Shown here piece by piece: positions 48,361 to 62,494 of a DNA stretch of 64,000 nt. The stretch covers positions 739,001 through 803,000 of the forward strand of contig JAKGBX010000002.1 in the NCBI GenBank assembly GCA_021555075.1, given 5' to 3'. The notes under the pieces are model-generated. The model did not search any database. It had not been told where the DNA came from and worked only from the letters and a program-made list of their open reading frames with translations. The stretch is from Rhodobacteraceae bacterium LMO-JJ12 (GTDB taxonomy: Bacteria; Pseudomonadota; Alphaproteobacteria; Rhodobacterales; Rhodobacteraceae). Within the stretch, counting starts at the first letter, position 1. Each line of letters starts with the position of its first letter. Both the position numbers and the translations under genes were made by a program.

Positions 48361-48723
48361 ATGAAGATGCACGCAGTCTCTCACCCACACCTAAAGCCTG
48401 GAATAGCCTTGCTACAGAGGTTCGCTCAGTTCGACATGAAGATGCAACTTAGCATCGCGTTGGCCCTGTTGTATATCGCTCAACACCAAGACCGAGACGA
48501 AGGTGTTACCACCAACGATTTGACTAAGTGGTTGGGTATGGCCCCCGCTGCTGCCAGCCGTAATAGCTACTATTGGGCTGATGGAACGCCTGACATGCCT
48601 CACGCTGGCTACGGTCTGATTAAGATCATCGTCAGTCCTACGGATCGTCGTCGTCGCTCTATGCGTCTCACACCTAAGGGAGAGGCGTTTGTGAACCAAC
48701 TTGAGGAGATACTCAATGCCTAG
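48361..48723 (+). CDS. MarR-like winged-helix protein
   Basis: 120 residues with a wHTH layout: MQLSIALALLYIAQH, TTNDLTKWLGMAPAAASRN, and IKIIVSPTDRRRRSMRLTPKGEAF, the last being a MarR-like beta wing. AAGGAGG precedes the ATG. MarR-like proteins on small islands usually regulate the island. It is followed by an inverted-repeat structure. Confidence 0.75.
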   Translation: MKMHAVSHPHLKPGIALLQRFAQFDMKMQLSIALALLYIAQHQDRDEGVTTNDLTKWLGMAPAAASRNSYYWADGTPDMPHAGYGLIKIIVSPTDRRRRSMRLTPKGEAFVNQLEEILNA

Positions 48724-48728
48724 ACCCA

Positions 48729-48815
48729 GTGAGGTGCCCCTAGTTTCTTAGACACCTGCCCCGTTCAGTTCAAAAATTACCAAGCAAAGCGTCTACAAAT
48801 CTAGGGGCACCTCAC
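48729..48815. repeat. 87-bp MITE-like structure with perfect 15-bp terminal inverted repeats
   Basis: GTGAGGTGCCCCTAG (48729-48743) and CTAGGGGCACCTCAC (48801-48815) are exact inverse copies; the similarity continues imperfectly inward (TTTCTTAGAC / GTCTACAAAT). No target duplication is obvious. A strong hairpin terminator between convergent genes is the alternative. The bases after it to 48978 hold nothing recognised. Confidence 0.6.
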
Positions 48816-48978
48816 ATCCGTGCAAAACGCAGCATCGGTCGATTGGGTTCTTAGCGGAATTACGGCGGTGCACCTCGTGGATCTTGGCCTAGTAGGCCGT
48901 TGTGTTGGCAACCGGATGACCGCCGTCAGCCCAAAGCGGTCACGTAGATGACGCGCAAGCTCTCTGGGTCTATCCTCC

Positions 48979-50733
48979 TCAACCGTCGAGATGCTTCTGA
49001 ATGTCCTTCAGAATCTCAAAGATCTTTGGATTCACGTCGCCTGCAGTCATCTCATCAATAACTCGGGATGAAGTCATTGTAACCTTGAAGTCCTGCTGGA
49101 TCTTCTTGGCGACAGATGAAAATACCAGCTTTCCGGGAACAACACGATGCCGGAATTCTGCGTCCTTCCATTTTTCTGTAAAGCTCGATTCTTCTTGGGC
49201 GGAAATGGTCGCAATATCCTTCTTTGACCCCTTTCCAACTTCAAAGCTGATTCTAGACCCAATACGAGCGGACAAGGTTTTGGATTTCATTTCTTCGACG
49301 CTAGCTGCGATTGCGCTGATAACCAAGTCCTCCCAACCCTGCGTTAGATCAGCACCATATTTTCTGACAACTGCCACAATTGCGTCAGGAACTAGAAGCA
49401 GATTTTCAATCTCCTTTTGCGGGAGGACCCGACAAAGAGTGTCCCCAACGTTCACATCATCCAAAAAACTAGATATTTCTTCATCACAGCGATAGTCGCG
49501 ATCAAAAATGGCAGAAACTGGTATTTTAAACCCGAAAAAGTTTTCAAACACCCAAGAGGATGTTGTGACGCGGGACCAATTGGAGAACCCATCTGTCTTC
49601 ATGAGAGTGACTGAAGAGTTTGAAACGAAATCCATCCCCCCAAGTTTTTTTGCAATTTTCGATAGAATTCTTGCATCGTTACCCTCAAAATACAGAACCT
49701 TTTTTGTTTTCGCGAGGCGAGCGAATTGAGCATTTTCTGAGCTTCCGATTGCTGAGTACACGTCAGAGTAACCGGATTCCCCCTGGATTCGTTTTGCGCT
49801 CCTAGACTCTGGTCGGATAATCAATACCTCTCCCGGTTCGACATCATTAATGATTTCAGTTGAATGAGTGGCTATAAAGTACTGTCCAACGCGTTGACTG
49901 ACCAATCTTAGCAATCGGTGCTGCAGATCGGGATGCAAGTATATGTCAGGCTCGTCGAGAATGAGAGTTGAGCCATGATTTGAGGCAGTAAGGTGCATCA
50001 TGGTCTGCATCCATACCTGGAAGCCAAAACCGGCCCACTGCACTTCTCTCACATGAGGACCATCACGGAAGTACATGCGCACTACTGGTCGTTTTCCGCC
50101 GCGCTCAATTTCTGGACGACTTACCCTTATTCCCGGCCACCCCAACTCGACTAAGTCAGCAAAAACCTCAAACTCTGCCTTATTTTTATGCAACCAGAAA
50201 TTCCTGAAGTTCCGGCTTGCCAGCCTCCCGTATCGATTTTTCTCGACGGTTTCCTGTAAGACTAGTTCTTCATTTTGCTCTAACGGGCTGAGCGTAGGAA
50301 CTATGATCAAATTTAATGGAAACTGATCTCGCAAAAACTGTGTATTCAGTCGAGGTTGAAGTTCAGTTTTCAGATAGCATTCGAGTGGGCCGTCATTGGG
50401 AATCGATATCGAAAATGTATTGCCGTTTTCTAGCTTAATATATATCTTTGCGTTTCCGTCGCCGAAATTGTGAATACAGTACCGGAGGTCTGTCTGAAAC
50501 GCGGAAATGGGTATCTCCCATGTGGGGCAGGCTCCGTCTTGCCCCTGAGATTTGAACTTGGCATTTCTGCGGCTTGCATATCTAAGAGCGTCAAAGGTAA
50601 TTCTAAAAGCATCCAAGGCTGTAGATTTACCTGCGTTGTTTGGACCGACCAGTACATTCTTGTCCCTCGCCGACAGCGTGAACTTTGAAAACGTCTTGTA
50701 GTCATGGAACTCGATAGATTTGACTTTGCTCAT
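48979..50733 (-). CDS. OLD-family ATPase-TOPRIM nuclease (class 1-like), probable defence protein
   Basis: 584 residues. N-terminal RecF/SMC-type ATPase: Walker A VGPNNAGKST (about 29-38), Walker B STLILDEPDIYLHPD (about 255-270), FIATHST His switch. C-terminal TOPRIM-like part: VLYFEGNDARIL and the acidic FDRDYR. OLD proteins cut DNA during phage attack or lysogeny-related conflicts. No reverse transcriptase, methyltransferase or GajB-like helicase is adjacent, so it likely acts alone. It is the main cargo of E3, AT-richer than the integrase. Confidence 0.85.
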   Translation of the reverse strand: MSKVKSIEFHDYKTFSKFTLSARDKNVLVGPNNAGKSTALDAFRITFDALRYASRRNAKFKSQGQDGACPTWEIPISAFQTDLRYCIHNFGDGNAKIYIKLENGNTFSISIPNDGPLECYLKTELQPRLNTQFLRDQFPLNLIIVPTLSPLEQNEELVLQETVEKNRYGRLASRNFRNFWLHKNKAEFEVFADLVELGWPGIRVSRPEIERGGKRPVVRMYFRDGPHVREVQWAGFGFQVWMQTMMHLTASNHGSTLILDEPDIYLHPDLQHRLLRLVSQRVGQYFIATHSTEIINDVEPGEVLIIRPESRSAKRIQGESGYSDVYSAIGSSENAQFARLAKTKKVLYFEGNDARILSKIAKKLGGMDFVSNSSVTLMKTDGFSNWSRVTTSSWVFENFFGFKIPVSAIFDRDYRCDEEISSFLDDVNVGDTLCRVLPQKEIENLLLVPDAIVAVVRKYGADLTQGWEDLVISAIAASVEEMKSKTLSARIGSRISFEVGKGSKKDIATISAQEESSFTEKWKDAEFRHRVVPGKLVFSSVAKKIQQDFKVTMTSSRVIDEMTAGDVNPKIFEILKDIQKHLDG

Positions 50734-51312
50734 TTATTGTAAGGACCTAGCTTTGCAGAATAAGTGGGTGCAACTTACTATACCGAACAATTTATCAACT
50801 AAAGTCGGATCACCCCAATCTAGGGTGATCTGTCTGGCATCGAATGGCAAGACTAGTTGCTTCTAGGTTGACTTTGCAAAGCCCGCTTTCTGCGCATACC
50901 CGACCTTGGTGGACAGCGCAGCATATGGGCTTCGGTCTTCTAGGGCTTGAATGGCCGCTTATGCCAGTCTGGCAGAAAACATTCGCAGACGCAGCTAAGA
51001 TCCGGTTTCCGCCCATCTACTATTTGCACGGAGAGGCGTTTAGAGCGCACCTGGGAGCGGCGACAATGCTTGTCGGCACCCAAGCACCTGCAAACGTAAC
51101 GCTTAGCTTCCTGACGAGCGCCACGGCGCGTCTTGCGGCGTTTCGAAAACATCACTTTGCTTGAACTTGAATCGCAACCTAAGCTCCGCTCCTCCGTAGA
51201 CTTCAAATATCGGAGGAGGAGCGGGGCGGTCCGCGAAACGGCTTCGTAGAATTCGGTAACGGACGAAGCCTCGCGCGCGCCCGCGCGCGCGTACCCGCAT
51301 ACGCTCTTGTTC

Positions 51313-51544
51313 CTGTATGCATCTACTGACACCGGCGCAGGCAATATTAGGCCGGATTGACGTCGATTGATGTAGTTGAATCTTGCAGAGCGAAACGGTT
51401 TGGTTGTCATGCTCCGGATCAGGTCGGTGACTTTAGAGGCGTTTACGAGTCAAGTAGAAATTTCGAATTACGCTAGATTCGGTGGCGCTTTCTGCTCAAG
51501 TGTGCGGAACAAGTCACGAATGCCTGTATGCGTTTACTGACACC
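51313..51544. repeat. Imperfect 21-bp direct repeat in the long non-coding gap of E3
   Basis: CTGTATGCATCTACTGACACC (51313) and CTGTATGCGTTTACTGACACC (51524), 19 of 21 identical, 211 bp apart. The gap 50734-51705 also has a CG-dinucleotide run at 51270-51290 and no convincing gene; open frames there have poor start context. The repeats may be protein-binding sites or the trace of a duplication. Confidence 0.5.
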
Positions 51545-51705
51545 AAAGAGGGTTTCAAAAAACAAAAAAAATCGCAGTTCTTGCTGCCGAATCAGTGCTC
51601 ACCTAGAATCCTACCCAGAACAGTTTGCATGGGCGACACAAGCACATTCACCCAAATGGGTGCGCGAACTCTAACTTATGGTAAGGTCAACAGGTTGGAT
51701 TTGAA

Positions 51706-51879
51706 ATGGCGGCGACAACGATTGTGAAGAAGGCTCTTGCCATGCTCAATACGTTTGAGCGGGCTGGGAAGTCTGTGTCGCGTGTCATTGTAGAGGGACG
51801 CAAGATTGAAATCGTTCTCTTGGAAACGAAGGAAAACGACGAATTTGACGGGATAGATATGCATCATGGCAAAACGTGA
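51706..51879 (+). CDS. Small protein overlapping the E3 integrase, candidate recombination directionality factor
   Basis: 57 residues (KKALAMLNTFERAGKSVS, then VEGRKIEIVLLE, and the end FDGIDMHHGKT). Its last 14 bases overlap the integrase start. The E4 integrase is preceded, also overlapping, by a protein of similar size and layout with an FLNSDLRMGK end (61142-61327). The shared place and tail suggest a conserved partner of this integrase family. Confidence 0.65.
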   Translation: MAATTIVKKALAMLNTFERAGKSVSRVIVEGRKIEIVLLETKENDEFDGIDMHHGKT

Positions 51880-52876
51880 GCTTCCAAAACACGTCTATAG
51901 ACAGCGCAATGGCCTGTATTTTCAGCGGCGAGGGTGGCGTTCGCAGAAATTCGAAAATGAATTCGGGACGCCGGAATTTTGGGCCGAGTATGCTGATATT
52001 CTGTCTGGCAAAGAAAAGCCCAGGCGCGTCGTAACACGCAATTTTGCGGCCCTAATTGAAAACTATCGCAGGTCTCCGAGGTATCGACGGCTTAAGCCGC
52101 GAACTGCGCTTGATTATGACAAGTATTTGGATTTCTTCCTGTCGATTATGGGAAAAGCCAACCCGGTTAACTTGAAGCGCAAGGATGTAATCCGGCTGCG
52201 TGATGCGAATGCCGAAAAGGCTTACTTCGCTAATTATTCTCTGCGTGTTTTGCGCGTTCTCATGGAGCATTGCGTTGATCTGGGGTGGCGAGAGACAAAC
52301 CCCGCCAAAGGCGTTCCGGAGCTGAAAACCCAAAAGACCGAGCGAGAGCCTTGGCCGAGAGAGTTGCTTGAGGCGTATCGTTGTCATTGTCCGATTGGGA
52401 CGAGAGAGCGCCTTGTAATGGAGCTTTGCGTGGGCACGGGCCAACGGATCGGCGATGTTCTGGAAATGCGCTGGTCTGACATTCAGGACGGTGCAATTGT
52501 TGTCAAACAGAACAAAACCAACAAAGAGCTATGGGTTCCGATCCTTCCCGAGTTGCAAACCGCGCTCGATGCGGCCAGCCGCCATTCGGTGTTCATCCTG
52601 ACCAATGAGAGAGGGACGAACCGTTGGTCATATCGCGGCGCGTCACAAGCTGTGCGCAATGTTCGCGAGAAGATTGGTGCGCTGAGCTATGACATTCACA
52701 GTTGGCGTTACAACGCGGCCTGTGAATTGCTTGAAGCTGGCTGCGAAGATGACCTGATTGCAGCCGTGACGGGGCAAAGCCCGGCGATGGTCTTGCACTA
52801 TACCAAGAAGGTTCGCCAGAAGATCAGGGCGATTCAGGCGCAGCAAATGCGAACAGAACAAAAACAGAATGTTTAG
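51866..52876 (+). CDS. Tyrosine integrase of E3
   Basis: 336 residues, homologous along its length to the E4 integrase. Catalytic region: Arg in GTGQRIGDVLEMRW, HSWRYNAACELLEAG box, and HYTKKVRQ with the probable nucleophile Tyr. The usual GH motif before it reads VTGQ, so one accessory His is Gln. The N-terminal part (LPKHVYRQRNGLYF, EFGTPEFWAEY) would bind the arm repeats. The 3' end runs into the first GTTTAGAC repeat: the stop codon is part of it. Confidence 0.92.
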   Translation: MAKRELPKHVYRQRNGLYFQRRGWRSQKFENEFGTPEFWAEYADILSGKEKPRRVVTRNFAALIENYRRSPRYRRLKPRTALDYDKYLDFFLSIMGKANPVNLKRKDVIRLRDANAEKAYFANYSLRVLRVLMEHCVDLGWRETNPAKGVPELKTQKTEREPWPRELLEAYRCHCPIGTRERLVMELCVGTGQRIGDVLEMRWSDIQDGAIVVKQNKTNKELWVPILPELQTALDAASRHSVFILTNERGTNRWSYRGASQAVRNVREKIGALSYDIHSWRYNAACELLEAGCEDDLIAAVTGQSPAMVLHYTKKVRQKIRAIQAQQMRTEQKQNV

Positions 52877-52890
52877 ACGTTTGTTTAGAC
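52870..52890. other. E3 integrase arm-type repeat pair, tRNA-proximal end
   Basis: TGTTTAGAC at 52870 and 52882, 12 bp apart, 56 bp before the core at 52938. Confidence 0.65.
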
Positions 52891-52937
52891 TTTGATACGC
52901 CGGTTTGCCGGATGGGCTCTAAGTCATTGATTTTAAA

Positions 52938-52986
52938 TGGAGGCGAGTACCGGAATCGAACCGGTGTTCACGGATTTGCAATCCGC
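52938..52986 (-). repeat. tRNA-Cys 3'-end copy (E3/E4 junction)
   Basis: 49 bp identical to 62421-62469 (tail of tRNA-Cys through the anticodon stem); the 5' half is absent. Att core for E4 and E3. Confidence 0.93.
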
Positions 52987-53015
52987 CCGCTTATCCAAGA
53001 AAATCAAGGGGGTTC

Positions 53016-53067
53016 TGTTTCAAAACACCCCCCGACAAACAGTGAACTAACCAAGAATGTTTCAAAC
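53016..53067. other. E4 integrase arm-type sites, distal end
   Basis: TGTTTCAAAA at 53016 and TGTTTCAAAC at 53058, 78 and 120 bp inside the core at 52938. Matches the pair at 62354/62366. Confidence 0.65.
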
Positions 53068-53207
53068 GCCGAATTGAACGGCGCAAAAGAAAACGCCGCG
53101 ACCTCGGCAAAGGTCTACGGCGTCAAGGACGTTATGGAAGGCGTCTATTCTTGCGGCGAGTATACCGCGCTTTTCCCCATCTTAGCAATACACTGGGGGG
53201 CGCTGGT

Positions 53208-53396
53208 ATGACTTTCATTCCCGTTTCCCGCGACATTGAAGGCTCAATGATTGAAGCGCCAGGCGGCTTCATTGTTAGTGTCTTTCACATTCCGACCAAC
53301 CGGGCGCTCTATGGCTTCGAGCATTCTTCTGAGGGTGCGCTTGGCTGGATTTACGCCTCTCGCCTGATCTTAGACAAGGCGGAGGGCAGCGCATGA
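53208..53396 (+). CDS. Small hypothetical protein, first of the E4 replication operon
   Basis: 62 residues (FIPVSRDIEGSMIEAPGGFI). The ATG at 53208 follows GGGGGCGC; an earlier in-frame start would enter non-coding sequence. Overlaps the next gene by four bases. No family recognised. Confidence 0.6.
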   Translation: MTFIPVSRDIEGSMIEAPGGFIVSVFHIPTNRALYGFEHSSEGALGWIYASRLILDKAEGSA

Positions 53397-53611
53397 GCAA
53401 CGTCACCAAATTGCCCACAGCGGCAACCAGCTATTACACGGTGAACAAGGCGGGCCGCTACTTCGATGTGGTGTTGGTCACACCTTGCCCCAGCAAGAAC
53501 CTCAAGACACGCCTCTATCGCGTCCCTGAGGAACAATACGCGCATGATATCGCGCGCAACTTGGCGGAGGATATGAAGCGTCCCTTCAAGATCGGGGGGA
53601 AAGCGGTATGA
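53393..53611 (+). CDS. Small hypothetical protein
   Basis: 72 residues with mixed charge (YYTVNKAGRYFDVVLVTP, VPEEQYAHDIARNLAEDM). ATGA overlaps on both sides place it in the operon. Function unknown. Confidence 0.65.
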   Translation: MSNVTKLPTAATSYYTVNKAGRYFDVVLVTPCPSKNLKTRLYRVPEEQYAHDIARNLAEDMKRPFKIGGKAV

Positions 53612-54009
53612 GCAAACACACATCTTTTTCGGCGCTCATGCACAAGCCGCACCTTCGCGTAGTGCAGTCTCTTGGCTACGTTCTGACGCTGGGAACGCAA
53701 CATGCCTGGTGGGGGTTTGTGCAGATCCTCTGCGAACTCCTAACGCCCCAGGAGCGCGCGTCACTGGCGTTTATGGCGCTCAAGTCTCTGGATCATGAAG
53801 ACGCGGTGTTGACGGCGGAAACGGCGCTTGCAGAGGGCGCAGGCCAACCCATTGCGCCCCTATACAGCGATATGGATGAGGCAGCGTTCTGGGCTGATAT
53901 GGCGAGTGAAGGCGAGTTGAAAGCCTATGCCTTAGCCAGCTTCACGCGCCTGTCACAAGGCAATCAAGCGGCCTTCCTTGACTATGTGCAGGGGAGGGCA
54001 GCGGCATGA
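53608..54009 (+). CDS. Hypothetical helical protein of the E4 operon
   Basis: 133 residues, mainly helical (FVQILCELLTPQERASLAFMAL, FWADMASEGELKAYALASF). No membrane segment. Four-base overlaps with both neighbours. No family recognised. Confidence 0.65.
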   Translation: MSKHTSFSALMHKPHLRVVQSLGYVLTLGTQHAWWGFVQILCELLTPQERASLAFMALKSLDHEDAVLTAETALAEGAGQPIAPLYSDMDEAAFWADMASEGELKAYALASFTRLSQGNQAAFLDYVQGRAAA

Positions 54010-55145
54010 CTGTATTCAACGCAATCGGCGCGCATGACGCCGCGCACCGCGCCAATCATCCCAAATCACCCGACGAACGCGCCGAACCCGGCAAGGCTTC
54101 ACGGTTTTACTCGGCGGCATCGCTCAAGGGCAAGGCCGTCAAGCCGCGCGAGTGGCTGGTGCAGGAGTTGGTCCCGAAAAAGACAGTCACCCTGTTCAGC
54201 GGCGACGGAGGCACCGGTAAGAGCCTATTGGCGTTGCAATTGGCCGTCGCTGTTGCGGCGCAAACTGCTTGGGTCGGGAAAACCGTCAATTCTGGCGGTG
54301 TCATCTATCTTTCGGCAGAGGATGACGACGACGAATTGCACCGTCGCCTTGACGACATATTGCGGGCCGAGGGGCGCAGCTATGACGATCTGCCTGCCCT
54401 GACCCTGCGGTCACTGGCGGGCGAAGATGCTTTGCTGGCGATAGAATCCGGCGTGGCTCTGATGCAAACGGAGTTGTTCAAGGAACTGGACGCGCGGGCG
54501 ATAGATGAAGCCCCGGCGCTGATCGTGGTGGATACCCTGGCCGATGTTTACCCGGCCAATGAGAACGACCGCGCCAAGGTGCGGCAATTCGTTGGTATCC
54601 TGCGCGGGCTGGCGCTCAAGCGGAATTGCTCTGTGCTCTTGCTGGGCCACCCGTCTCTTACCGGCTTGAACAGCGGCACCGGCACGAGTGGCAGCACGGC
54701 TTGGAACAACTCAGTGCGCTCGCGTCTCTATCTCTCACGGATCGATGACAACGGGTTCGAGGCAGATCCCGACCGGCGCGTCATGACGACCATGAAGGCG
54801 AACTATGGGCGCGTAGGCGGCGAAACCTACATGAAGTGGACCGATGGCGTATTCGTGGCCGAGACGCAGCCGAGCGGGCTGGATGCTCTGGCGGCGGGCG
54901 CTAAGGCGCAACGCGTCTTCATGAAGCTTCTGACAATGTTCACAGAGCAGGGACGACAAGTGAACCACGTCAGCGGGGCCAGTTATGCGCCCAAGCTGTT
55001 CGCAGAGCATCAAGACAATGAGGGCATGACCAAGCGAGCGTTAAAGGCGGCGATGGAAGGGCTTTTGGCAGCCGGAAAGATCAAGATTGAGACCGAGGGG
55101 CCACCATCCCGCGCGCGCTCCTTTATCGTGGAAGCGGGCCAATGA
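54006..55145 (+). CDS. RepA/RecA-like ATPase (AAA_25 type), probable replicative helicase
   Basis: 379 residues. Walker A GDGGTGKSLLALQLA (about 64-78), Walker B ALIVVDTLADVY (about 170-181), LLLGHPS sensor-like segment and a winged-helix-like C-terminus. Such hexameric RepA/DnaB-like ATPases replicate plasmids and satellites. It would drive E4 replication after excision. Confidence 0.85.
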   Translation: MTVFNAIGAHDAAHRANHPKSPDERAEPGKASRFYSAASLKGKAVKPREWLVQELVPKKTVTLFSGDGGTGKSLLALQLAVAVAAQTAWVGKTVNSGGVIYLSAEDDDDELHRRLDDILRAEGRSYDDLPALTLRSLAGEDALLAIESGVALMQTELFKELDARAIDEAPALIVVDTLADVYPANENDRAKVRQFVGILRGLALKRNCSVLLLGHPSLTGLNSGTGTSGSTAWNNSVRSRLYLSRIDDNGFEADPDRRVMTTMKANYGRVGGETYMKWTDGVFVAETQPSGLDALAAGAKAQRVFMKLLTMFTEQGRQVNHVSGASYAPKLFAEHQDNEGMTKRALKAAMEGLLAAGKIKIETEGPPSRARSFIVEAGQ

Positions 55146-55339
55146 TGACCATGCAAACCCCCTGCAATCCCCCTAGCAATTGGGGTTCAGTTCCCCCTAG
55201 CAAACCCCCCGAAAACCCCCTTCAAACCCCTAGCCAACCATCCCCCCATACCCCCAAGGGCTATGCGCACGCCCTGAGAGGCGATGCGCGCCCTAATCAC
55301 GTGGCTTTTCAGAGCAGCAAACCAAGGACAAACCCATGA
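55142..55339 (+). CDS. Small proline-rich protein
   Basis: 65 residues, about a quarter proline in the first 40 (PPSNWGSVPPSKPPENP). ATGA overlap with the ATPase and with the next gene supports translation. The DNA has CCCCCTAGCAA repeated, so a DNA-level role such as origin repeats is a second possibility. Confidence 0.45.
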   Translation: MMTMQTPCNPPSNWGSVPPSKPPENPLQTPSQPSPHTPKGYAHALRGDARPNHVAFQSSKPRTNP

Positions 55340-55524
55340 CCGAAGATGAGAAGCTGGCTTTGTCAGTCGAAGCCGAGAATTTTGTAAACAACGCAATTTC
55401 TGAGACGATTGCGAAGTCGGGCGACCCGGTAATGGCATTGGAGTGCTTGTTCCACTGGATCACGGAGGCAAGCCGTTTCGCACAAGACGCGTGCGCGCAC
55501 TTCGAGAAGGAGTTGCGCAAATGA
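55336..55524 (+). CDS. Small acidic helical protein
   Basis: 62 residues (EAENFVNNAISETIAKSGDP, FHWITEASRFAQDACAHF). Four-base overlaps with both neighbours. Function unknown. Confidence 0.6.
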   Translation: MTEDEKLALSVEAENFVNNAISETIAKSGDPVMALECLFHWITEASRFAQDACAHFEKELRK

Positions 55525-55781
55525 GCAGCCACAACACAAAGCCGACCATTTCCGACTTCAGAAAAATGCAGGCAGAGCGAGAGCGAGTCAAAGACTTGCT
55601 GGGCGAAGCTATCCAAGACCTTGTTTGCGAGGGCGGCGACATTCGCTTTTTCAACGCAGCTTTTCTTGTCGCTGCGATCCAGCTTCATGCCGAAGTTGAG
55701 GGGCCGGAAACGATAAGCCGCGCCTTGTCCAAATTGGCAGTGCGAGAACTTACCGCACGGGGCGAGGTTGGCGCATGTTGA
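55521..55781 (+). CDS. Hypothetical helical protein
   Basis: 86 residues, amphipathic helices (ISDFRKMQAERERVKDLL, FFNAAFLVAAIQLHAEVE). ATGA start within the preceding stop. Last gene of the left operon; a new promoter begins at its end. Confidence 0.6.
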   Translation: MSSHNTKPTISDFRKMQAERERVKDLLGEAIQDLVCEGGDIRFFNAAFLVAAIQLHAEVEGPETISRALSKLAVRELTARGEVGAC

Positions 55782-55806
55782 CAATCACCCTAATGGGGTA
55801 TTATAT
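55778..55806 (+). promoter_or_regulatory. Sigma-70-type promoter with a palindrome over the -10 box, ahead of the capsid gene
   Basis: TTGACA (55778-55783), 17-bp spacer, TTATAT as -10. The -10 is the centre of a perfect palindrome, GGGGTA-TTATAT-TACCCC, so a repressor could sit directly on it. It would drive the capsid and small terminase genes. Confidence 0.65.
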
Positions 55807-55828
55807 TACCCCTAACGGTTCTGCGCTG

Positions 55829-55957
55829 ATGGCGCGTCCTGACAAACCTTTTCCCGCAATGCTGATGGCTGCGCGCGAAAGAAACGAACCTCTAGCCGGG
55901 GCCGTTCTTTTGCGCGTTCTGGCATTCCACAAGGGAAAACCAAATGTATATCACTGA
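55829..55957 (+). CDS. Possible short leader-type protein before the capsid gene
   Basis: 42 residues (MARPDKPFPAMLMAARE...), overlapping the capsid ATG. No strong ribosome site, no family. It lies between the promoter and the capsid gene. Confidence 0.3.
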   Translation: MARPDKPFPAMLMAARERNEPLAGAVLLRVLAFHKGKPNVYH

Positions 55958-57314
55958 TCAACAGGACTTCGCCGCACGCAAGCATTGCATCGCTCTGCAC
56001 CGTGACCTTGGCGTTAAATCCCTGACTGAACTTCGCGCCCACAAAATGACCTGGGCCGAATTGAACGCCGCAGAAAGCCGGATCAAGGCAACCACTAAGA
56101 ACACTCTCGACAAGATGGAAACGGGGGACGACGAAACGTCTGAAAGCGTTGGGTTGGCCGTTGATGGTCTGCTGGGCGCATTCGATGCGATCAGGTTCGA
56201 GAAGGACACTCGCACTGAAATAGGCAGCAGAGAGCCGCGCGCCCAAGAAGCCACACAACGGCAACTGGATCGACGCCCCGGCTTGCCGGTTGGTGAAGCG
56301 CGCATGGATGGGATGGAGACTACCAGCGGCCACGCCAAGGCGTTTAGCAACTTCCTGCGGCAACCTCACAGCCGTTCCGTTCAAGGTGAGTTGCAAGAGG
56401 CTGAGCAAAGGGCAGGCACTACACTAACCGGTTCGGCGGGCGGCTATGTCGTGCCGCAGATCATCGCCGGTCCCTTGTTGGCACGGGCGCAAGACACAAA
56501 CCCGTTTCGCAACGTGGTTCGTGTCGTCAATGTATCTTCTGGTGATGTGAAGTTCCCCCTCTCCAATGCCGACGCAACGTCTGGATGGGTAGGCGAAACT
56601 GACACCCGCACTGAAACGACAGAACCAACCTTAGCCTCTAAGGTGCCAACCTTTGGGGTAGCATACAGCTATGTAAAGCTGACTGAGGAACTGTCTCAGG
56701 ACGCCATGATTGACGTTGCCGGGTGGTTTGAAACCGAGGCAGGCACGGCGCTTGGCGAAGCTGAGATGAGTTCCATTGTCTCGGGGAATGGCTCTGACAA
56801 ACCAAGCGGCCTGTTGAACGTGCCGCCCGAGTCTGACCCGGATGGAAGCCGAACGGCAGACGCCTTCCGCTATCTTGCCAGCGGGACTGCGTCCACTCTC
56901 GGCAGCGCCCCCGGCGATAATCTGGCCGATATGGTTTATGATCTGAAAGCAGGATACCGGGCGAACGGCAAGTGGCTGATGAACAGCGCCACGGCAGGCG
57001 CGGTTCGCAAGCTGAAGAACGGGGCGGGCGATTATATCTGGTCGGATGGTCTGGCGATGGGACAACCCAGCTCTCTGCTTGGCTATCCTGTCGTGATTGT
57101 CGAGGGCATGGAAGATATTGGGACCAACAAGCACCCCATTGCCTTTGGTGATTGGGACAGGGCCTATATCTTAGCTATCCGCTCCGGCCTGTCTGTGACT
57201 GTGGACGATAACATCACAACGCCGGGATACGTGAAACTCTACATTCGGCATCGGATCGGCGGTTGCGTCTATGACGAGAACGCAGCCCGGTTCCTGAAAT
57301 GTGCGGCCACGTAA
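55944..57314 (+). CDS. HK97-type phage major capsid protein
   Basis: 456 residues. The N-terminal 150 residues form a charged delta/scaffold-like region with helices; the capsid fold begins near TLTGSAGGYVVPQII and continues with RVVNVSSGDVKFPLS, SYVKLTEELSQDAMIDV, GNGSDKPSGLL and the LLGYPVVIVE loop before FGDWDRAYIL. AAGGGAAAA precedes the ATG. No protease, portal or tail genes follow; the next gene is a terminase small subunit. Confidence 0.9.
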   Translation: MYITDQQDFAARKHCIALHRDLGVKSLTELRAHKMTWAELNAAESRIKATTKNTLDKMETGDDETSESVGLAVDGLLGAFDAIRFEKDTRTEIGSREPRAQEATQRQLDRRPGLPVGEARMDGMETTSGHAKAFSNFLRQPHSRSVQGELQEAEQRAGTTLTGSAGGYVVPQIIAGPLLARAQDTNPFRNVVRVVNVSSGDVKFPLSNADATSGWVGETDTRTETTEPTLASKVPTFGVAYSYVKLTEELSQDAMIDVAGWFETEAGTALGEAEMSSIVSGNGSDKPSGLLNVPPESDPDGSRTADAFRYLASGTASTLGSAPGDNLADMVYDLKAGYRANGKWLMNSATAGAVRKLKNGAGDYIWSDGLAMGQPSSLLGYPVVIVEGMEDIGTNKHPIAFGDWDRAYILAIRSGLSVTVDDNITTPGYVKLYIRHRIGGCVYDENAARFLKCAAT

Positions 57315-57338
57315 CAGCACAAGAACACGGGCCTCTTT

Positions 57339-57542
57339 ATGAGGGCGATGATCCAGCCCGACAACGGAAAGCCGAATGCGTGGCCCATGTATCTCGCAGG
57401 CGTTCAATTCGGCAAGGTGCCAACCCCCTCCCAACCTACATCAGGCGCGGAGGGGGCACCCCAAAGTCTGGGGAAAATTCCTTGGGGACCGGCGCGGGGA
57501 GCCGTTTGCACACGTCCACAGTTGAAACATTCGGAAAGATAA
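57339..57542 (+). CDS. Possible small hypothetical protein between capsid and small terminase
   Basis: 67 residues, Pro/Gly-rich, ending just before the next ATG. Ribosome site poor. May be spurious. Confidence 0.25.
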   Translation: MRAMIQPDNGKPNAWPMYLAGVQFGKVPTPSQPTSGAEGAPQSLGKIPWGPARGAVCTRPQLKHSER

Positions 57543-57543
57543 G

Positions 57544-57894
57544 ATGGCAAATCCGCAACTTCCTAAGGCGAAAGCAAAGATACTTGGGGCCGACAGGAAG
57601 AACCCGAAGCGGTATCGCGGGCAGGGCGAGACGCCAGATGGCTTGTCGGATATGGCAAAAGAACAATGGCGCGAGTTTGCGGACCTCATGCCCTGGCTGG
57701 CGCAATCTGATCGTCAGCTTGTTTATTTGGCGAGCCTTCTGAGCATCAGAACGACTGAGCCGGATTGCCCGCTTGGCGTGTTTACCCAGCTACGCCTTTG
57801 CCTTTCATCTATGGGCGGCACTCCGGTCGATCGGTCGCGGGTGCAATGGAACGACGATGACGAACCCGACCCCGCAAACGAATTTCTGAATTAA
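57544..57894 (+). CDS. P27-like phage terminase small subunit
   Basis: 116 residues. GLSDMAKEQWREFADLM, a middle helix (SDRQLVYLASLLS), and LRLCLSSMGGTPVDRSRV near the end, the last being the P27-family DNA-recognition tail. TerS picks the packaging site; in satellites it redirects a helper's large terminase. GGAAAG precedes the ATG. Confidence 0.75.
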   Translation: MANPQLPKAKAKILGADRKNPKRYRGQGETPDGLSDMAKEQWREFADLMPWLAQSDRQLVYLASLLSIRTTEPDCPLGVFTQLRLCLSSMGGTPVDRSRVQWNDDDEPDPANEFLN

Positions 57895-57924
57895 GAATAG
57901 AAGGATTTGAGATAGTGCCAGTTT

Positions 57925-58164
57925 CTATTTCTTCCTGATGTATGGAGGGTCAGCATAATAGTCACATGCGTCCATGTGCTTATTGAGCCGGATAGTGGTG
58001 GGCCTTAGATATGTTTCCAGTGCTAACTTCGCCATTTTGTAATCACCCGCTTTCATGGCGACTTCATAGAAACCCATAATGTCAGCTTCCATTTCATCGG
58101 CGCATTCCTGCTCTGATTTGCACCCAGTTAGTGCTAGGGCAGCAACGAGTAGTGCAAACCTCAT
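57925..58164 (-). CDS. Small lipoprotein
   Basis: 79 residues with a lipobox ALALTGC (Cys about 15). The mature part is helical and charged, with three more Cys. AAAGGAAA precedes the ATG. Opposite to the capsid genes. Superinfection exclusion is a possible role; no evidence beyond location. Confidence 0.6.
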   Translation of the reverse strand: MRFALLVAALALTGCKSEQECADEMEADIMGFYEVAMKAGDYKMAKLALETYLRPTTIRLNKHMDACDYYADPPYIRKK

Positions 58165-58421
58165 ACTGGTTTCCTTTAACCAAGTTTAGCGCGCCCGTGT
58201 CTCAGAGATTACCTAAGCCCCGAGGATGTGCAAAGTCCGATAGGGGCAGGGGGAGGGTAAAAGTATGGGGTTGGGAGGCCGTAGACCGCGCGTGGGGTGA
58301 CTTTTATGCACGGTCAGAATGAAACTGGTTTCAACTGGAATTTTTGTAGCCGCATTCTCACTAGACGCCGCTTGTTTCACTCGCATAGGCTGCGATTAGT
58401 TGTGTTATGTTTCGGAGATTG

Positions 58422-58757
58422 ATGATGAAGGCGTTTCTTCTAGTTGCAAGCGTTAGTCTTGTTCCGTTTGGCGCTGCTGCTAACACAACGGGAAAGTTCC
58501 TCAACTCCGGATGCATAGCATTTTTTACTTTCATGGACACACGCGAACTCTTTCAACCCGATATTCAAATCTACATGGAAGGCTTGATTGAGGGCCTCAC
58601 CCTAGCCTCAGGTGCGAACACAGATGCGGCTAATTTCAAATTCTGGGATAGTTTTTACGAGGCGTATCAGGAAGTCTGCTTCAAGGAATTTGACCGTCCA
58701 GTGCGCTACGTGCTGCCGAAGGCATTTCAGAAAGCAGTCACGGATAGCGAACAATAG
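58422..58757 (+). CDS. Exported hypothetical protein
   Basis: 111 residues, signal peptide to about 19 (FLLVASVSLVPFGAAA). Mature part has two Cys (SGCIAFFTF, EVCFKEF) and resembles small Rap1a/Tai-like periplasmic proteins in layout only. ATG at 58422 with CGGAG upstream. The 221 bases that follow hold no gene. Confidence 0.55.
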   Translation: MMKAFLLVASVSLVPFGAAANTTGKFLNSGCIAFFTFMDTRELFQPDIQIYMEGLIEGLTLASGANTDAANFKFWDSFYEAYQEVCFKEFDRPVRYVLPKAFQKAVTDSEQ

Positions 58758-58968
58758 ATTCATTTTAGCCGAGGTTTTAGTGGCGCTTGTTCAAAATGCG
58801 CGCTGTTCGCCGCTCTGGTGAGCTGCTGCAACAGATTGAGCCGCAGCACGGTGCAAACCAAAACATTAGTGTGGGCGACCATACTAGGTCCAGCGCAGCC
58901 CGCGAAGCTGGGATGTCAAAGCATCGGAGCATCGGCAAATTCGCCGATCTAAATGACCTATCGGCGCG

Positions 58969-59439
58969 TTAGTCTGAAAACGATCTGTTCATTTCTTTAC
59001 GGCGCTCATCAACGAGTTTTTTGTGCTCCGATTCTCTCGCATCAAGCCAACCTGTGATGCCGGTAATTTTGCGTTCCAAAGCCTCTAAATCAACAAGGCA
59101 TTTCTCTAGCTCTTTGTCGGACAAGGAATCTACGCTCTTGGTGGCATCCTCAAGGTCGTTCCGAAGTGTTTCTACGGCCAATTTATTTTCGCAAATTTTA
59201 CGGTCGTCGCTTTCTCTGGCGCCACTTTGATACATACCTCTACTCGCGAAACTATCATGCGCGGACTTCTTGGTGCGCTCAATCCTCTCAGGCAAACCTT
59301 CGACTACAAGGCGCAGCCTAGTTGCACTGCGTTTTGCTTCCAGCCTCCAAGTTCTTTGCTGTGTTGTTTTGGACTGATGTAAAGATAAAACGGATATCAG
59401 AAGAGCGAGTGCGGAAATTACTATAGGGATCCAGTCCAT
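58969..59439 (-). CDS. Membrane-anchored coiled-coil protein
   Basis: 156 residues: one N-terminal membrane helix (IPIVISALALLISVLSL) and a long charged helical part (about 30-150). No enzymatic motif. GAGAGA precedes the ATG. Its role is unknown; such anchored coiled coils occur in phage exclusion cargo. Confidence 0.6.
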   Translation of the reverse strand: MDWIPIVISALALLISVLSLHQSKTTQQRTWRLEAKRSATRLRLVVEGLPERIERTKKSAHDSFASRGMYQSGARESDDRKICENKLAVETLRNDLEDATKSVDSLSDKELEKCLVDLEALERKITGITGWLDARESEHKKLVDERRKEMNRSFSD

Positions 59440-59517
59440 TTTTCGTCTCTCTCAACCTCATACTTGAACTGTCCTACCCGCATAGAAAACAGTCGCAATC
59501 CGGCAAATTGTGGGGGG

Positions 59518-59841
59518 TTATTGCGAACTGGCTTTTGCGTTAATCGCCTTCTCGAATGCGAGCAAAATCCGCTCAATATCGCCTTTAGTTGCGGGCAGTT
59601 CTGGGTTCGTTAGCTCGGGATAGTCCTGCGGGGCAAAATCTGGATCACTGAGCCATTGCTCGCGCGCTTTATCAAGTTCAGTCGCATATTCTTCACTAGA
59701 TAGGTGAAACTCTAACGCCTGCACAATTTCAGCATTCATGCTTCGTTTATTTTGGGCCGCGATATCCTTGAGACGCTCACGCATACCGTCTGGAAGGCGC
59801 AGCACAAATTTATCCTGCTTTTGAGATGGAAAATCCGACAT
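59518..59841 (-). CDS. Arc-type ribbon-helix-helix repressor
   Basis: 107 residues. KFVLRLPDGMRERLKDIAAQ followed by RSMNAEIVQALEFHL is the Arc-family RHH domain; the C-terminal 50 residues are acidic and helical. Divergent from a second RHH gene at 59924, which suggests a paired switch. Confidence 0.8.
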   Translation of the reverse strand: MSDFPSQKQDKFVLRLPDGMRERLKDIAAQNKRSMNAEIVQALEFHLSSEEYATELDKAREQWLSDPDFAPQDYPELTNPELPATKGDIERILLAFEKAINAKASSQ

Positions 59842-59923
59842 GATGGCGAGTTGCCACTCTTTTAGGGTTTGCGCAATGGTGGCAAGTTGCTATATATGGC
59901 AAATAGCTACCATGGAGGACCAA
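59842..59923. promoter_or_regulatory. Operator region between the two divergent RHH genes
   Basis: Three TGGCAA motifs: inverted at 59851-59856 and direct at 59880 and 59897. TTGC-TATATATG-GCAA (59887-59902) is a palindrome over an AT-rich, promoter-like core, and GAGT-TGCC-ACTC lies next to the left gene. These fit RHH operators controlling both directions. Confidence 0.55.
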
Positions 59924-60076
59924 ATGAAACCAATGCAGCTACGCCTGCCACCTGACCTGAAAGACTGGATCAAGGCGCAGGCAGCACAGAACCATTCTTC
60001 GCAAAACAGCGAAGTTATCCGCGCAATCCGCGAACGGATGCAGCGCACAACCCCAGGAGACAGAGACAATGGATAA
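59924..60076 (+). CDS. Small Arc-type ribbon-helix-helix protein
   Basis: 50 residues: MQLRLPPDLKDWIKAQAAQN, then SSQNSEVIRAIRERM, nearly a bare RHH domain. Start at 59924 with GGAGGA upstream; earlier in-frame ATGs (59840, 59912) would enter the operator. Overlaps the next gene by eight bases. Probably the Cro-like counterpart to the 59518 repressor. Confidence 0.75.
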   Translation: MKPMQLRLPPDLKDWIKAQAAQNHSSQNSEVIRAIRERMQRTTPGDRDNG

Positions 60077-60266
60077 GACGCTTTCAAACTGCCAACACAG
60101 CGCGCTCCTTCTCAAAGGTATGCTGGAGGGTATCGGGCATCTGGACAACGAGGGCCACGAGAACGCCATGACTGCGGTAATTGAGGTTGCCTCGCAACTC
60201 GCTGAGAGACTTTCCAATGATCTGGACGCGGTGAACATGAGAATCATGAACGGAGAAGCGGCATGA
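60069..60266 (+). CDS. Small hypothetical protein
   Basis: 65 residues, helical (SALLLKGMLEGIGHLDNEG, SQLAERLSNDLDAVNMRI). Overlaps the RHH gene and the next gene. Resembles small accessory proteins common after prophage repressors; no family name. Confidence 0.6.
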   Translation: MDKTLSNCQHSALLLKGMLEGIGHLDNEGHENAMTAVIEVASQLAERLSNDLDAVNMRIMNGEAA

Positions 60267-60460
60267 CCCGTCCGGCGCATATCGAGGCTGCGATATCTCG
60301 TGCCTATCAGATCGAAAGCCTTCTTCGCATCGCGTCCGAAGCGGCGGTGGAGGACAACGGCGACTTTGGTCGCTTGGGCGGTTCAACCGTTCTTTCGCTG
60401 GCCGCTGACATGGCGGGCGATATCGTGATGGGCTTGGAGGGAGATGGGAAGGGAGGCTAA
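60263..60460 (+). CDS. Small hypothetical protein
   Basis: 65 residues, helical with acidic bias (AISRAYQIESLLRIASEAA). Overlaps the preceding stop; the stop abuts the next ATG. Function unknown. Confidence 0.6.
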   Translation: MTRPAHIEAAISRAYQIESLLRIASEAAVEDNGDFGRLGGSTVLSLAADMAGDIVMGLEGDGKGG

Positions 60461-61087
60461 ATGTCGCTTGACCTTTTGGCCTGCATGGGCGATAAATGGT
60501 CAACTGACCACTTAATAAGCTGTAAGGGCGAGTCGATGCAGACCATTCTTGGCAAAACTATCAACAACACATTCAGCGCGTCGGAACTGTCCGAACTGAC
60601 CGGCGCGAAGCCAGATTCGATTCAGAACTGGCTAAAGCGCGATTTGATCATCGGTCACAAGAAAATCACCGGCGGTGGCGGTCAAGGCAAGCACCGCCGT
60701 TTCACTTTTCACAACATGATCGAAGTCGCGATGGCGCAAACGCTCATTAATCTGCACATGGGTTCGAAAGAGGCATTCGCAGCTTCTGCCAATTTCGCCC
60801 ATGCAGGCGGCGGCGGGACAACCTTCAACATGCCGAAGCGTGACCCCGGACTCCCATTCCACTTTAACCACGGCGAAACGATTTTTGGAGTGGCGGGGGG
60901 GTGGACGTTTGAGGAGTTGTGGAAACCTGGATCTAGCCGAGACACTTACGGCAACCTGCGGCAACACCTTCACGCCGATCATTTTCTGACGGTCAACGCC
61001 TCTGAGGTCTTTAATCTGGTTTGTGCGCGCATGGACGTTCACCCTTACAAGGTTCTGGACGCAGCTTACCCCGAGGACGCCAGCTAA
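60461..61087 (+). CDS. MerR-like HTH protein of E4
   Basis: 208 residues; HTH segment FSASELSELTGAKPDSIQNW followed by GKHRRFTFHNMIEVAMAQTL as in MerR-type N-terminal domains. The C-terminal part is unassigned and Gly/Phe-rich. GGGAGG precedes the ATG at 60461; an in-frame ATG at 60536 is the alternative and matches the start of the HTH better. It may regulate the int module. Confidence 0.65.
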   Translation: MSLDLLACMGDKWSTDHLISCKGESMQTILGKTINNTFSASELSELTGAKPDSIQNWLKRDLIIGHKKITGGGGQGKHRRFTFHNMIEVAMAQTLINLHMGSKEAFAASANFAHAGGGGTTFNMPKRDPGLPFHFNHGETIFGVAGGWTFEELWKPGSSRDTYGNLRQHLHADHFLTVNASEVFNLVCARMDVHPYKVLDAAYPEDAS

Positions 61088-61141
61088 GAATGAATCAGGC
61101 CATCGTCATATCCGCGAGCAAGCCAAGTGGGGGGCGCACTA

Positions 61142-61327
61142 ATGGCTAACCCTGAAACCGTTGCCCGCAAGACTATGGCCGCGCTCCTTCGTGAGGCGCG
61201 GGCAGCGGGTTGGGCGCGTGTTAAGGGCGAGATCAAGCCAGACATGTCAGTCACTATCGACGCCTCTATGGGTGATCCTGACGGCGGTGACGACTTCCTG
61301 AACAGCGACTTGAGGATGGGCAAGTGA
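61142..61327 (+). CDS. Small protein overlapping the E4 integrase, candidate recombination directionality factor
   Basis: 61 residues. KTMAALLREARAAGWARVK, then KPDMSVTIDASM and FLNSDLRMGK at the end. GGGG lies before the ATG. The stop overlaps the integrase GTG. Layout and tail resemble the 57-residue protein before the E3 integrase, so the pair appears conserved. Confidence 0.65.
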   Translation: MANPETVARKTMAALLREARAAGWARVKGEIKPDMSVTIDASMGDPDGGDDFLNSDLRMGK

Positions 61328-62352
61328 CCAAGAAGGGTTTACCCAAATACGTTTATCCGGATCGGGGCTATATTCGTTTTATTCGTCGTTCCCGTGGGCA
61401 ATCCGTGATGATGAAAGAGGAACCCGGAACAACGGAATTTTGGGATCATTACAATCTGTTGCTCAAGGGCCGTGAGCCGATTCCATCGAAGCGCAATTTT
61501 GAGGCTCTGATTCTCAGCTACTTTGAAAGCGATGCGTTCAAGAAATTGAAACCGCGCACTAAGTCCGACTACCGCAAATACATCGGCCATATTCGCACGA
61601 TCTGGGGCGCGAAAGACCCTCAGCGGATCGAGACGCAGCACATCTATGAACTCCACCGCGCTAATGCAGACCATTGGAGACAGGCGAATTACCTGGTGCA
61701 GGTCATGGTGATATTGATGAACCACGCCCGCCTGATTGGCTTTCTCAAGAAGGAACATGGCAACCCGGCCAAGGGCATTCCGCTTTTCAAACAGGAAAGC
61801 GAAGGCTGGGAACCGTGGCCCGATGATGTGCGGGCTGAGTTTGAGGCGGTCGCAACGCCGCGCGCACGCTTGGTCTATGAACTGTGCATCGGCACAGGGC
61901 AGCGGATCGGTGATGTGGTGCAGATCGGTTGGGGCCATATCAAAGGCGGGGCTTATGACTTCACTCAAGGCAAAACCGACAAGCCTTTGTGGATCCCCCT
62001 GACTGACAGGCTCAAGGTTTTCCTAGCGTCTGTCGAGAAAAATGGCCTGACCGTTATTACGGACAAAAACGGACGCCCTGTTCGCTATCGCACCGTGGCC
62101 GACGAAATGCGCAAGGTGAAAGCAGCAATGCAGCACCCTGACGCGGCCAACTACAAAACTCACGGGCTGCGTAAGAACGCGACAATCGAACTTTACCAGT
62201 CAGGGTGCGACGACGAGATGGTGAAAGCCGTCACAGGTCACTCTGGCGTAGAAATGCTGAAAAAATACGGAGGACTGATCCGCCAACGCGAATTGGCAAC
62301 CCGTGCGCAGGACGCCCGGAACCGCTTTGAACAGAACAAGAAGGAAACGTGA
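61324..62352 (+). CDS. Tyrosine integrase of E4
   Basis: 342 residues, GTG start. Catalytic residues: Arg in GTGQRIGDVVQIGW, THGLRKNATIELYQSG box, VTGHSGVEML His and KKYGGLI Tyr. The fold-defining stretch LKPRTKSDYRKY matches the E3 integrase. Complete and probably active; the stop is 2 bp before the first TGTTTCAA arm repeat, and the tRNA core follows at 62421. Confidence 0.93.
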   Translation: MTKKGLPKYVYPDRGYIRFIRRSRGQSVMMKEEPGTTEFWDHYNLLLKGREPIPSKRNFEALILSYFESDAFKKLKPRTKSDYRKYIGHIRTIWGAKDPQRIETQHIYELHRANADHWRQANYLVQVMVILMNHARLIGFLKKEHGNPAKGIPLFKQESEGWEPWPDDVRAEFEAVATPRARLVYELCIGTGQRIGDVVQIGWGHIKGGAYDFTQGKTDKPLWIPLTDRLKVFLASVEKNGLTVITDKNGRPVRYRTVADEMRKVKAAMQHPDAANYKTHGLRKNATIELYQSGCDDEMVKAVTGHSGVEMLKKYGGLIRQRELATRAQDARNRFEQNKKET

Positions 62353-62353
62353 A

Positions 62354-62375
62354 TGTTTCAACACCTGTTTCAAAA
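62354..62375. other. E4 integrase arm-type repeat pair, tRNA-proximal end
   Basis: TGTTTCAACA at 62354 and TGTTTCAAAA at 62366, 12 bp apart, 55 bp before the tRNA end. Confidence 0.65.
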
Positions 62376-62420
62376 ATCGAGCACAAGGAATGAAAACATG
62401 ACGCAAGTCATTGAAAAGAT

Positions 62421-62494
62421 TGGAGGCGAGTACCGGAATCGAACCGGTGTTCACGGATTTGCAATCCGCTGCGTCACCACTCCGCCAACTCGCC
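62421..62494 (-). tRNA. tRNA-Cys (anticodon GCA)
   Basis: Complete 74-nt cloverleaf on the minus strand. GGCGAGT pairs with ACTCGCC in the acceptor; anticodon loop TTGCAAA; T arm ACCGG-TTCGATT-CCGGT; U discriminator; CCA encoded. It is the integration target of E2-E4 and probably E1; each insertion rebuilt its 3' end, so the gene is intact. The 267 bp after it hold no gene before pcm. Confidence 0.97.

Follow-up and report, generated by a model that had tools for sequence, protein, structure and literature searches.

Gene content and boundaries of E4

The window analysed here is a stretch of 64,000 nucleotides from Rhodobacteraceae bacterium LMO-JJ12 (GenBank assembly GCA_021555075.1, contig JAKGBX010000002.1, positions 739,001 to 803,000 of the forward strand), and positions in it count from its first letter. 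It contains a row of integrated elements that ends at a tRNA-Cys gene (Table 1). The last of them, E4, is a 9.48-kb unit between tRNA-Cys repeats (52938-62464) which carries genes for a major capsid protein (MCP) and a small terminase (TerS). In a preliminary description, E4 was proposed to be a phage satellite that supplies its own shell and packaging specificity and borrows the rest from a helper.

Copies of the tRNA-Cys end flank E4 at 52922 and 62405. The 29-nt core of the repeat occurs in the window as three exact copies (47895, 52945 and 62428) and one copy with two mismatches (18688), and shuffled sequence contained none. At the same tRNA-Cys gene, the single congener searched holds a different 7.6-kb insert, the integrase of which looks broken. 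No record in a plasmid collection covered 80% of E4, and the longest matches covered 8%.

Table 1. Features of E4 and its attachment repeats (positions in the window; aa, amino acids; ORF, open reading frame)
Feature	Position	Strand	Evidence or remark
Left attachment repeat, copy of the tRNA-Cys 3' end	52938..52982		exact core copies
133-aa protein overlapping the ATPase gene	53608..54009	+	no family match
RepA-like AAA_25 ATPase	54006..55145	+	PF13481 E 8.5e-35; phrog_906 E 3.8e-31
60-aa ORF, its last 14 nt shared with the capsid gene	55775..55957	+	no PHROG match
HK97-fold MCP, helical N-terminal (delta-like) region	55944..57314	+	456 aa, intact
cos-like site A, directly ahead of the TerS gene	57444..57535	+	G-rich tract/ACCG architecture
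TerS	57544..57894	+	116 aa; phrog_83 E 1.2e-9
cos-like site B, downstream of TerS	58243..58325	+	likeness to L036 and L079 sites
Putative exported 116-aa protein	58407..58757	+	no family match; signal peptide by eye
156-aa protein, N-terminal hydrophobic stretch (by eye)	58969..59439	-	27% relative in satellite L037
Arc-type ribbon-helix-helix regulator	59518..59841	-	PF03869 E 1.1e-14
Second, divergent Arc-like ribbon-helix-helix protein	59840..60076	+	phrog_795 E 1.7e-8
MerR-like helix-turn-helix protein	60461..61087	+	PF13411 E 0.0019 (below cut-off); L048 protein E 1e-5
Tyrosine integrase	61324..62352	+	PF00589 E 4e-15
tRNA-Cys (GCA), integration target	62421..62494	-	3' end is the right attachment repeat

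The capsid protein matches PF05065 (E 3e-64) and phrog_10 (E 1.3e-71), which confirms the HK97 MCP of the preliminary description, and family profiles likewise confirmed its RepA-like ATPase, ribbon-helix-helix regulator and integrase. The gene described there as a P27-like TerS does encode a small terminase. The P27-like label rests on the phrog_83 match and on a relative, the TerS of locus L036, which matches PF05119; Pfam applied to the E4 protein itself returned Terminase_7 only, and weakly (E 0.073). E4 TerS is 49.5% identical to the TerS of Paracoccus phage Shpa over 86% of its length (E 1e-17).

The AAA_25 ATPase is a probable replication protein. It matches primase/helicase PHROGs over its ATPase part, and no primase domain was seen. 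MerR-like proteins similar to that of E4 precede the integrase in the related loci L048 and, by eye, L056.

Virion genes in E4 and in its host strain

A six-frame profile search without filters, covering all fragments of at least 20 aa at E <= 10, was made for portal, large terminase (TerL), S78 protease and tape measure. Nothing in E4 rose above noise: the portal profile reached E 1.4 at best, that for S78 protease E 2.2 and that for tape measure E 9.5, and TerL had no match at all. As a control in the same run, the intact portal of the strain's gene-transfer agent (GTA) scored E 5e-117; its TerL reached no more than E 0.0065, which shows that this profile has little power for GTA-type TerL. 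The proposed absence of portal, protease and TerL from E4 was thus borne out for intact and decayed genes alike, no tape measure was found, and the gaps between the genes showed no degraded portal or TerL.

In the strain genome, a portal (PF04860, phrog_12) was found once, and the sole phrog_2 TerL hit adjoins it. The capsid protein beside this portal scores 593 bits to the Rhodobacter capsulatus GTA (RcGTA) protein. This one portal/TerL cluster is therefore a gene-transfer agent. As no helper prophage of this type was found in the strain, the idea of a resident helper was rejected, and a helper must come from outside.

Related elements without a portal gene

Relatives of E4, referred to below by L and G numbers, were sought in several surveys. 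Most matches of a family search in 295 genomes were at about 35%, with a portal next to each one inspected, and a few were closer. A scan of 84,980 species genomes, which used an alignment of five capsid proteins and required that a short peptide pattern be matched exactly, yielded 15 loci. Thirteen of these have no portal or TerL in the available flanks, which reach up to 10 kb (10 kb for most, about 4 kb on one side for L055 and L057). The other two are L051, a 3.4-kb fragment, and the cf-PICI-like L058 (a cf-PICI is a capsid-forming phage-inducible chromosomal island), a Pantoea locus with MCP, protease, portal, TerS, TerL and, by eye, an HNH-like ORF.

Across the order (390 genomes surveyed), the seven top loci (522-602 bits, in six genomes) all lack a portal: E4, two in G144, one each in G235, G380 (L049) and G449 (L045), and the new L187. 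The next three (364-380 bits), L039, L188 and L189, have one, and L039 is a full prophage. Among 385 genomes of the class, no score exceeded 340 bits except that of E4. For nearly all genomes these two surveys scored at most four first-look candidates each, so weaker capsid copies may be missed. Of the lower-scoring survey loci, 33 were inspected over about 4 kb; a protease lies beside the capsid gene in all 33 and a portal in 26.

Together with E4 and L187, the thirteen portal-less loci of the species scan make 15 elements, spread over 14 genomes; the 14 besides E4 lie in 13 other genomes (Table 2). All 15 have the capsid gene, and neither portal nor TerL was found in any. TerS is present in eight, an S78 protease in five and a tape measure, matching PHROG tape-measure families, in six; TerS and protease never occur together. 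A capsid gene and TerS without the other head and tail genes searched were found in E4 and five more elements (L036/L046, L047, L049, L050 and L187), and the reduced set is thus intact in other genomes.

Table 2. The 15 portal-less elements, their integration sites and the genes found beside the capsid gene
Element	Site	Size	Further genes
E4	tRNA-Cys	9.48 kb	TerS
L036	tRNA-Thr	8.96 kb	TerS
L037	tRNA-Asn	10.55 kb	S78 protease
L038	tRNA-Leu	10.08 kb	S78 protease
L040	adjoins tRNA gene; second repeat copy not found		tape measure
L045	tRNA-His	9.27 kb	TerS, tape measure
L047	tRNA-Ser	9.57 kb	TerS
L048	adjoins tRNA gene; second repeat copy not found		S78 protease, tape measure
L049	neither tRNA nor repeat found		TerS
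L050	adjoins tRNA gene; second repeat copy not found		TerS
L054	tRNA-Gln	8.49 kb	S78 protease
L056	tRNA-Leu	10.40 kb	S78 protease, tape measure
L057	tRNA-Ser (weak repeat, 80% over 25 nt)	9.75 kb	tape measure
L059	tRNA-Pro	11.64 kb	TerS, tape measure
L187	tRNA-Ala	9.52 kb	TerS

Direct repeats reaching into a tRNA gene bound 11 of the 15 elements, with sizes of 8.5-11.6 kb. Whole-genome searches of the window's genome and 14 locus genomes gave a portal in nine of the 15 and a TerL-like match, many of them weak, in 14; going by position, the L058 portal is the only one that lies within a locus. The absence of portal and TerL near the loci other than L058 rests on the locus profile and six-frame searches.

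As a control, 84 viral contigs that carry related capsid genes were examined; a portal was found in 71 of them, and in 51 of the 53 that have at least 3.5 kb before the capsid gene. The two exceptions are L060, which is satellite-like with a capsid gene and a tape measure, and L081 (8.2 kb). The other 11 portal-less contigs have less than 3.5 kb of sequence before the capsid gene.

Capsid protein and kinship of the elements

An AlphaFold model of the E4 capsid protein, built from 13 sequences, has a mean pLDDT of 70.6 and a pTM of 0.61, with low values in the N-terminal part. Among solved structures, this predicted fold matched RcGTA best, followed by cf-PICI EcCI2 at rank 4, HK97 from rank 12 and the SaPIbov5 procapsid entry at rank 41. 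The sequence profile agrees on GTA and EcCI2 as the nearest solved capsids (EcCI2 capsid 9gyi, E 3.5e-72). The GTA capsid protein of the host is 35% identical to that of E4 over the matched part.

The E4 protein has 165 residues up to the conserved GG..P motif. This length, which depends on uncertain start codons, is 87-165 in satellite-labelled proteins (median 104.5; 14 of 18 measurable) and has a median of 124.5 in 66 phage relatives. Between E4 and L045 the capsid proteins are 62% identical, and a pN/pS of 0.38, with synonymous sites near saturation, indicates that the genes diverge under constraint.

In a capsid tree made by a quick method, 13 satellite proteins, among them the L051 fragment and without L187, form one set with an SH-aLRT of 94, under the 95 mark. 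Nearest to E4 are L045, L036 and L047. L056/L090, L057, L060 and L061 fall outside the main set, some on long branches; L051 and L061 are short contigs, the portal of which could lie outside, and the tree label "gta" reflects a comparison with RcGTA only for L041. As L056, L057 and L060 stand elsewhere in the tree, the reduced state may have arisen several times, and several origins are likely.

Kinship of TerS departs from the capsid tree. E4 TerS is near those of L049 and phage Shpa (about 50%), and L036 TerS is near that of L047 (62%). The capsid proteins of E4 and Shpa show no match at E 1e-3, though their TerS are about 50% identical. Judged by these sequences, TerS was exchanged between close capsid relatives, which fits a swap of the address gene to suit the helper.

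cos-like sites

The records of phages D3 and HK97, which we take to start at the cut end, have TerS starting 36 nt (D3) and 49 nt (HK97) from the start of the record. When the ends are joined, a G-rich tract followed by ACCG appears, and in D3 then a T-rich stretch. A similar architecture was seen in E4 (57444 and 58243), L036, L045 and L187, and less clearly in L049.

The pattern was put into a rule (10 G in 13 nt, with ACCG 15-50 nt on), formed after the D3, HK97 and satellite sites had been seen. It occurs before TerS in four of eight TerS-bearing elements (seven portal-less ones and L188, with L059 left out), against an expected 0.07 (p 6e-7). In 22 phage contigs that were unused in making the rule, it occurs within 200 nt before the TerS domain in eight, against an expected 0.14 (p 1e-12; L112 and L113 look like copies of one phage). 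The whole window has three occurrences, at 7804 and the two in E4. For L187 the search covered 8600-15100 only. The rule gave no site in phage SOVA965, and by eye the ends of the Shpa record do not have the look of a cos site.

Comparison of non-genic sequence with the relatives also pointed to site B, as a 49-nt stretch of E4 (58273-58320) is 84% identical to one just before TerS in L036. In addition, phage contig L079 has, ahead of its TerS, a stretch in which 20 of 20 nt agree with site B, and this was noticed before the rule was made. Aligned to L045, the D3 cos scored 46, against at most 36 in 20 shuffles. Only L045 (to D3) and L036, E4 and L187 (to the E4/L036 motif) scored at least 3 above the highest of 20 shuffles, and in most other elements the direct D3/HK97 cos alignment was not above shuffles. 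From their architecture and the phage-contig test, we read sites A and B of E4 as candidate cos sites.

Neighbouring elements and variants among the relatives

Two further stretches between tRNA-Cys copies precede E4. The adjacent 5-kb element (47895-52945) has its own integrase (51866-52876) and, probably as anti-phage cargo, an OLD/GajA/AriA-type ATPase nuclease (48979-50733) whose best PADLOC match is AriAB (E 5.2e-22). At the end of the stretch at 18688-47895, which measures about 29 kb and has two mismatches in its left copy, lies an integrase that is divided between two reading frames (46483-47004 and 46949-47602).

L188 and L189 are tRNA-Asn elements of 9.8 and 10.1 kb with capsid, protease and portal, and in L188 also TerS; no TerL was found in either. 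Possibly, they are intermediates between cf-PICIs and E4-like satellites. In L040, an 80-aa ORF just before the capsid gene (9653-9892) matches the S78 protease profile (E 2.3e-5), and by eye it is the C-terminal tail of a protease, as if the catalytic part had been lost. L050 (Pseudomarimonas) has an OLD-like nuclease directly after the capsid gene (10856-12991; PADLOC Old, E 2.4e-29), and in L056 five copies of a G-rich 28-nt repeat follow the tape measure (13880-14516).

A second Marimonas element lies in tandem with L036 (15562-18001, L141); it is decayed and has kept only TerS among the genes searched. The metagenomic viral contig L060 contains the portal-less satellite with capsid gene and tape measure and then, by eye, a second integrase and a D5-like gene, so that it apparently holds two satellites in a row.

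Function of E4 and alternative explanations

With a probability of about 75%, we consider E4 to be a cos-type satellite like the phage-inducible chromosomal islands (PICIs), which redirects its helper into small capsids by means of its own shell protein and packaging address. The satellite reading of the preliminary description is supported by the absence of a decayed portal or TerL and by the five other elements in which the reduced set is intact.

In the mechanism proposed, infection by a helper siphophage with HK97/D3-type packaging would trigger excision and replication of E4. The E4 capsid protein, alone or mixed with that of the helper, would assemble a small shell around the helper portal, which the helper protease would mature. 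E4 TerS would then lead the helper TerL to an E4 cos, and helper tails would complete the particle. As this diversion of capsids would also harm the helper, it might shield the host population.

E4 is called PICI-like because it falls outside the cf-PICI definition and has the features of PICIs only in part. PICIs measure about 8-15 kb, which E4 matches with 9.48 kb between tRNA-Cys copies and an integrase of its own. Redirection of packaging by TerS and cos is represented by TerS and the two cos-like sites, at the level of sequence only. Where PICIs have a pri-rep replication module, E4 has the RepA-like ATPase with no primase domain seen, and where they have an AlpA/MerR or Stl regulator, it has the ribbon-helix-helix pair and a MerR-like protein that matches only at E 0.0019.

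Several observations weigh against this interpretation. The integrase is at the right end of E4 rather than at the left as is usual in PICIs, and Pfam and PHROG searches showed no AlpA gene. E4 is without the protease that five relatives have kept, and the portal/TerL searches of the strain genome gave no resident helper prophage. The cos rule was derived from sites already seen; it gave no site in four of the eight TerS-bearing elements, in 14 of the 22 phage contigs, or in L079, despite the 20 nt which that contig has in common with site B. Aligned directly to E4, the D3 and HK97 cos scored 26 (shuffles up to 38) and 32 (shuffles up to 34).

The most serious rival, less probable than a shell-forming role and itself a variant of the satellite reading, is that the E4 capsid protein is a size switch which enters some capsomers and cannot form a shell alone. 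The lack of portal and protease in E4 speaks for it. Against this, the proteins nearest to it, from RcGTA and cf-PICI EcCI2, make whole shells, and five of the 14 other elements have a protease of their own. The model for such a switch is the HK97-fold homologue Ccm of the Staphylococcus aureus pathogenicity island (SaPI) SaPIbov5, which takes the pentamers of a T=4 shell, and for SaPIbov5 no protease was identified (PMC8569155). As described there, Ccm lacks a long N-arm, whereas the N-terminal region of the E4 protein is long.

An improbable alternative is that E4 is a domesticated anti-phage element which is not itself transferred and uses its capsid protein and TerS to poison the assembly of the helper. 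Blocking of helpers by satellite capsid homologues is known, as described for Ccm (PMC5052747), and the element next to E4 carries a defence-like nuclease. E4 nevertheless keeps an integrase, attachment repeats, a replication ATPase and cos-like sites, and the apparent TerS swaps suggest use in packaging.

Even less likely is the explanation that the preliminary description had named as the main alternative, a remnant prophage in which two head genes happened to survive the loss of portal, TerL and tail. Decayed elements do exist, as seen in the second Marimonas element. In E4, the six frames show no trace of portal or TerL, the ORFs are intact and the repeats exact. Comparable reduced sets recur in many elements of about this size, integrated at various tRNA genes; 14 further portal-less loci are known from 13 other genomes, and the capsid gene is under constraint. 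On these grounds, the remnant prophage was rejected. Packaging of E4 by the host's own GTA is barely credible, even though the strain showed no portal/TerL locus besides the GTA cluster, the capsid protein of which is related to that of E4, since a GTA particle holds only about 4 kb of DNA, and E4 TerS and the cos-like sites resemble those of HK97/D3/Shpa-type phages.

More tentatively, and at somewhat less than even odds, the elements may form a modular class of satellites which keeps the genes for size and specificity (capsid with or without protease, tape measure, TerS with cos) and not portal, TerL, connectors or tail tube. Such a class would have arisen more than once, and the two types of cos-like site in E4 may serve two kinds of helper.

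Comparison with known satellites and implications

Precedents are known for satellites that carry a capsid gene, namely SaPIbov5 with Ccm, PmCI172, a Vibrio PISP and the cf-PICIs. E4 had been described as a minimal variation on capsid-forming satellites. It is more than that, and PICIs with a capsid homologue (SaPIbov5 with Ccm, PmCI172) are the nearer functional precedents. In capsid lineage, cf-PICI EcCI2 is among the nearest solved structures. cf-PICIs have capsid, protease, portal, connectors, both terminases and HNH (PMC10690885), whereas E4 has only capsid and TerS. Of the capsid module it has the MCP, with portal and protease absent and connectors not searched by profile, and of the packaging set it has TerS, with no TerL match at E <= 10 and HNH not searched by profile.

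SaPIbov5 resembles E4 in being a small integrated satellite with an HK97-fold capsid homologue, no protease identified and cos packaging (PMC5052747, PMC8569155). It differs in the N-arm, as noted above, and cos SaPIs use the helper terminase directly (PMC10690885), whereas E4 has its own TerS beside a cos-like site. Like E4, PmCI172 and other Gram-negative PICIs carry a major capsid homologue, and PmCI172 forms small heads of 38-39 nm, for which the responsible gene was not identified in that report (PMC6092414). In E4 the integrase is at the opposite end, no AlpA was seen and the ATPase is of the AAA_25 type; the likeness is drawn without comparison of the capsid sequences.

The 11.1-kb Vibrio PISP TG93 has a capsid protein, a head protease, a small terminase and a MerR-like regulator, and a portal is not named in the part of the report compared (PMC13230959). 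It is a plasmid without integrase, with a capsid protein E (PF03864) and its own protease, whereas E4 is integrated, has a PF05065 protein and lacks a protease. The tape measure of six E4 relatives recalls Vibrio cholerae PLE11, where a tape measure serves chimeric tails, and satellite tape measures are reported in such PLEs and some cf-PICIs (PMC12987554). The likeness is by function and not by gene comparison; PLE11 virions contain helper capsid proteins (PMC12987554), and E4 itself has no tape measure.

The pick-and-mix composition of the gene sets and the pair of cos-like sites in E4 are less expected in view of these precedents. The portions of the literature searched described neither an integrated set of HK97-type capsid and TerS with its own cos-like sites nor a satellite with capsid and tape measure that lacks portal and TerL; the original cf-PICI paper and those on tycheposons and virion-encapsidated integrative mobile elements lay outside this comparison.

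E4 bridges the satellites that merely resize the helper capsid and the capsid-forming ones with a full head module, and it suggests that portal and terminase need not share the origin of the satellite capsid protein with which they work. Elements like it may be overlooked as incomplete prophages; SatelliteFinder did not flag the Vibrio PISP, the gene set of which is similarly reduced (PMC13230959). The mixed gene sets, with exchange of TerS and a tape measure in six of the 15 elements, offer a testable case for the idea that the genes for size and address are what satellites must own.

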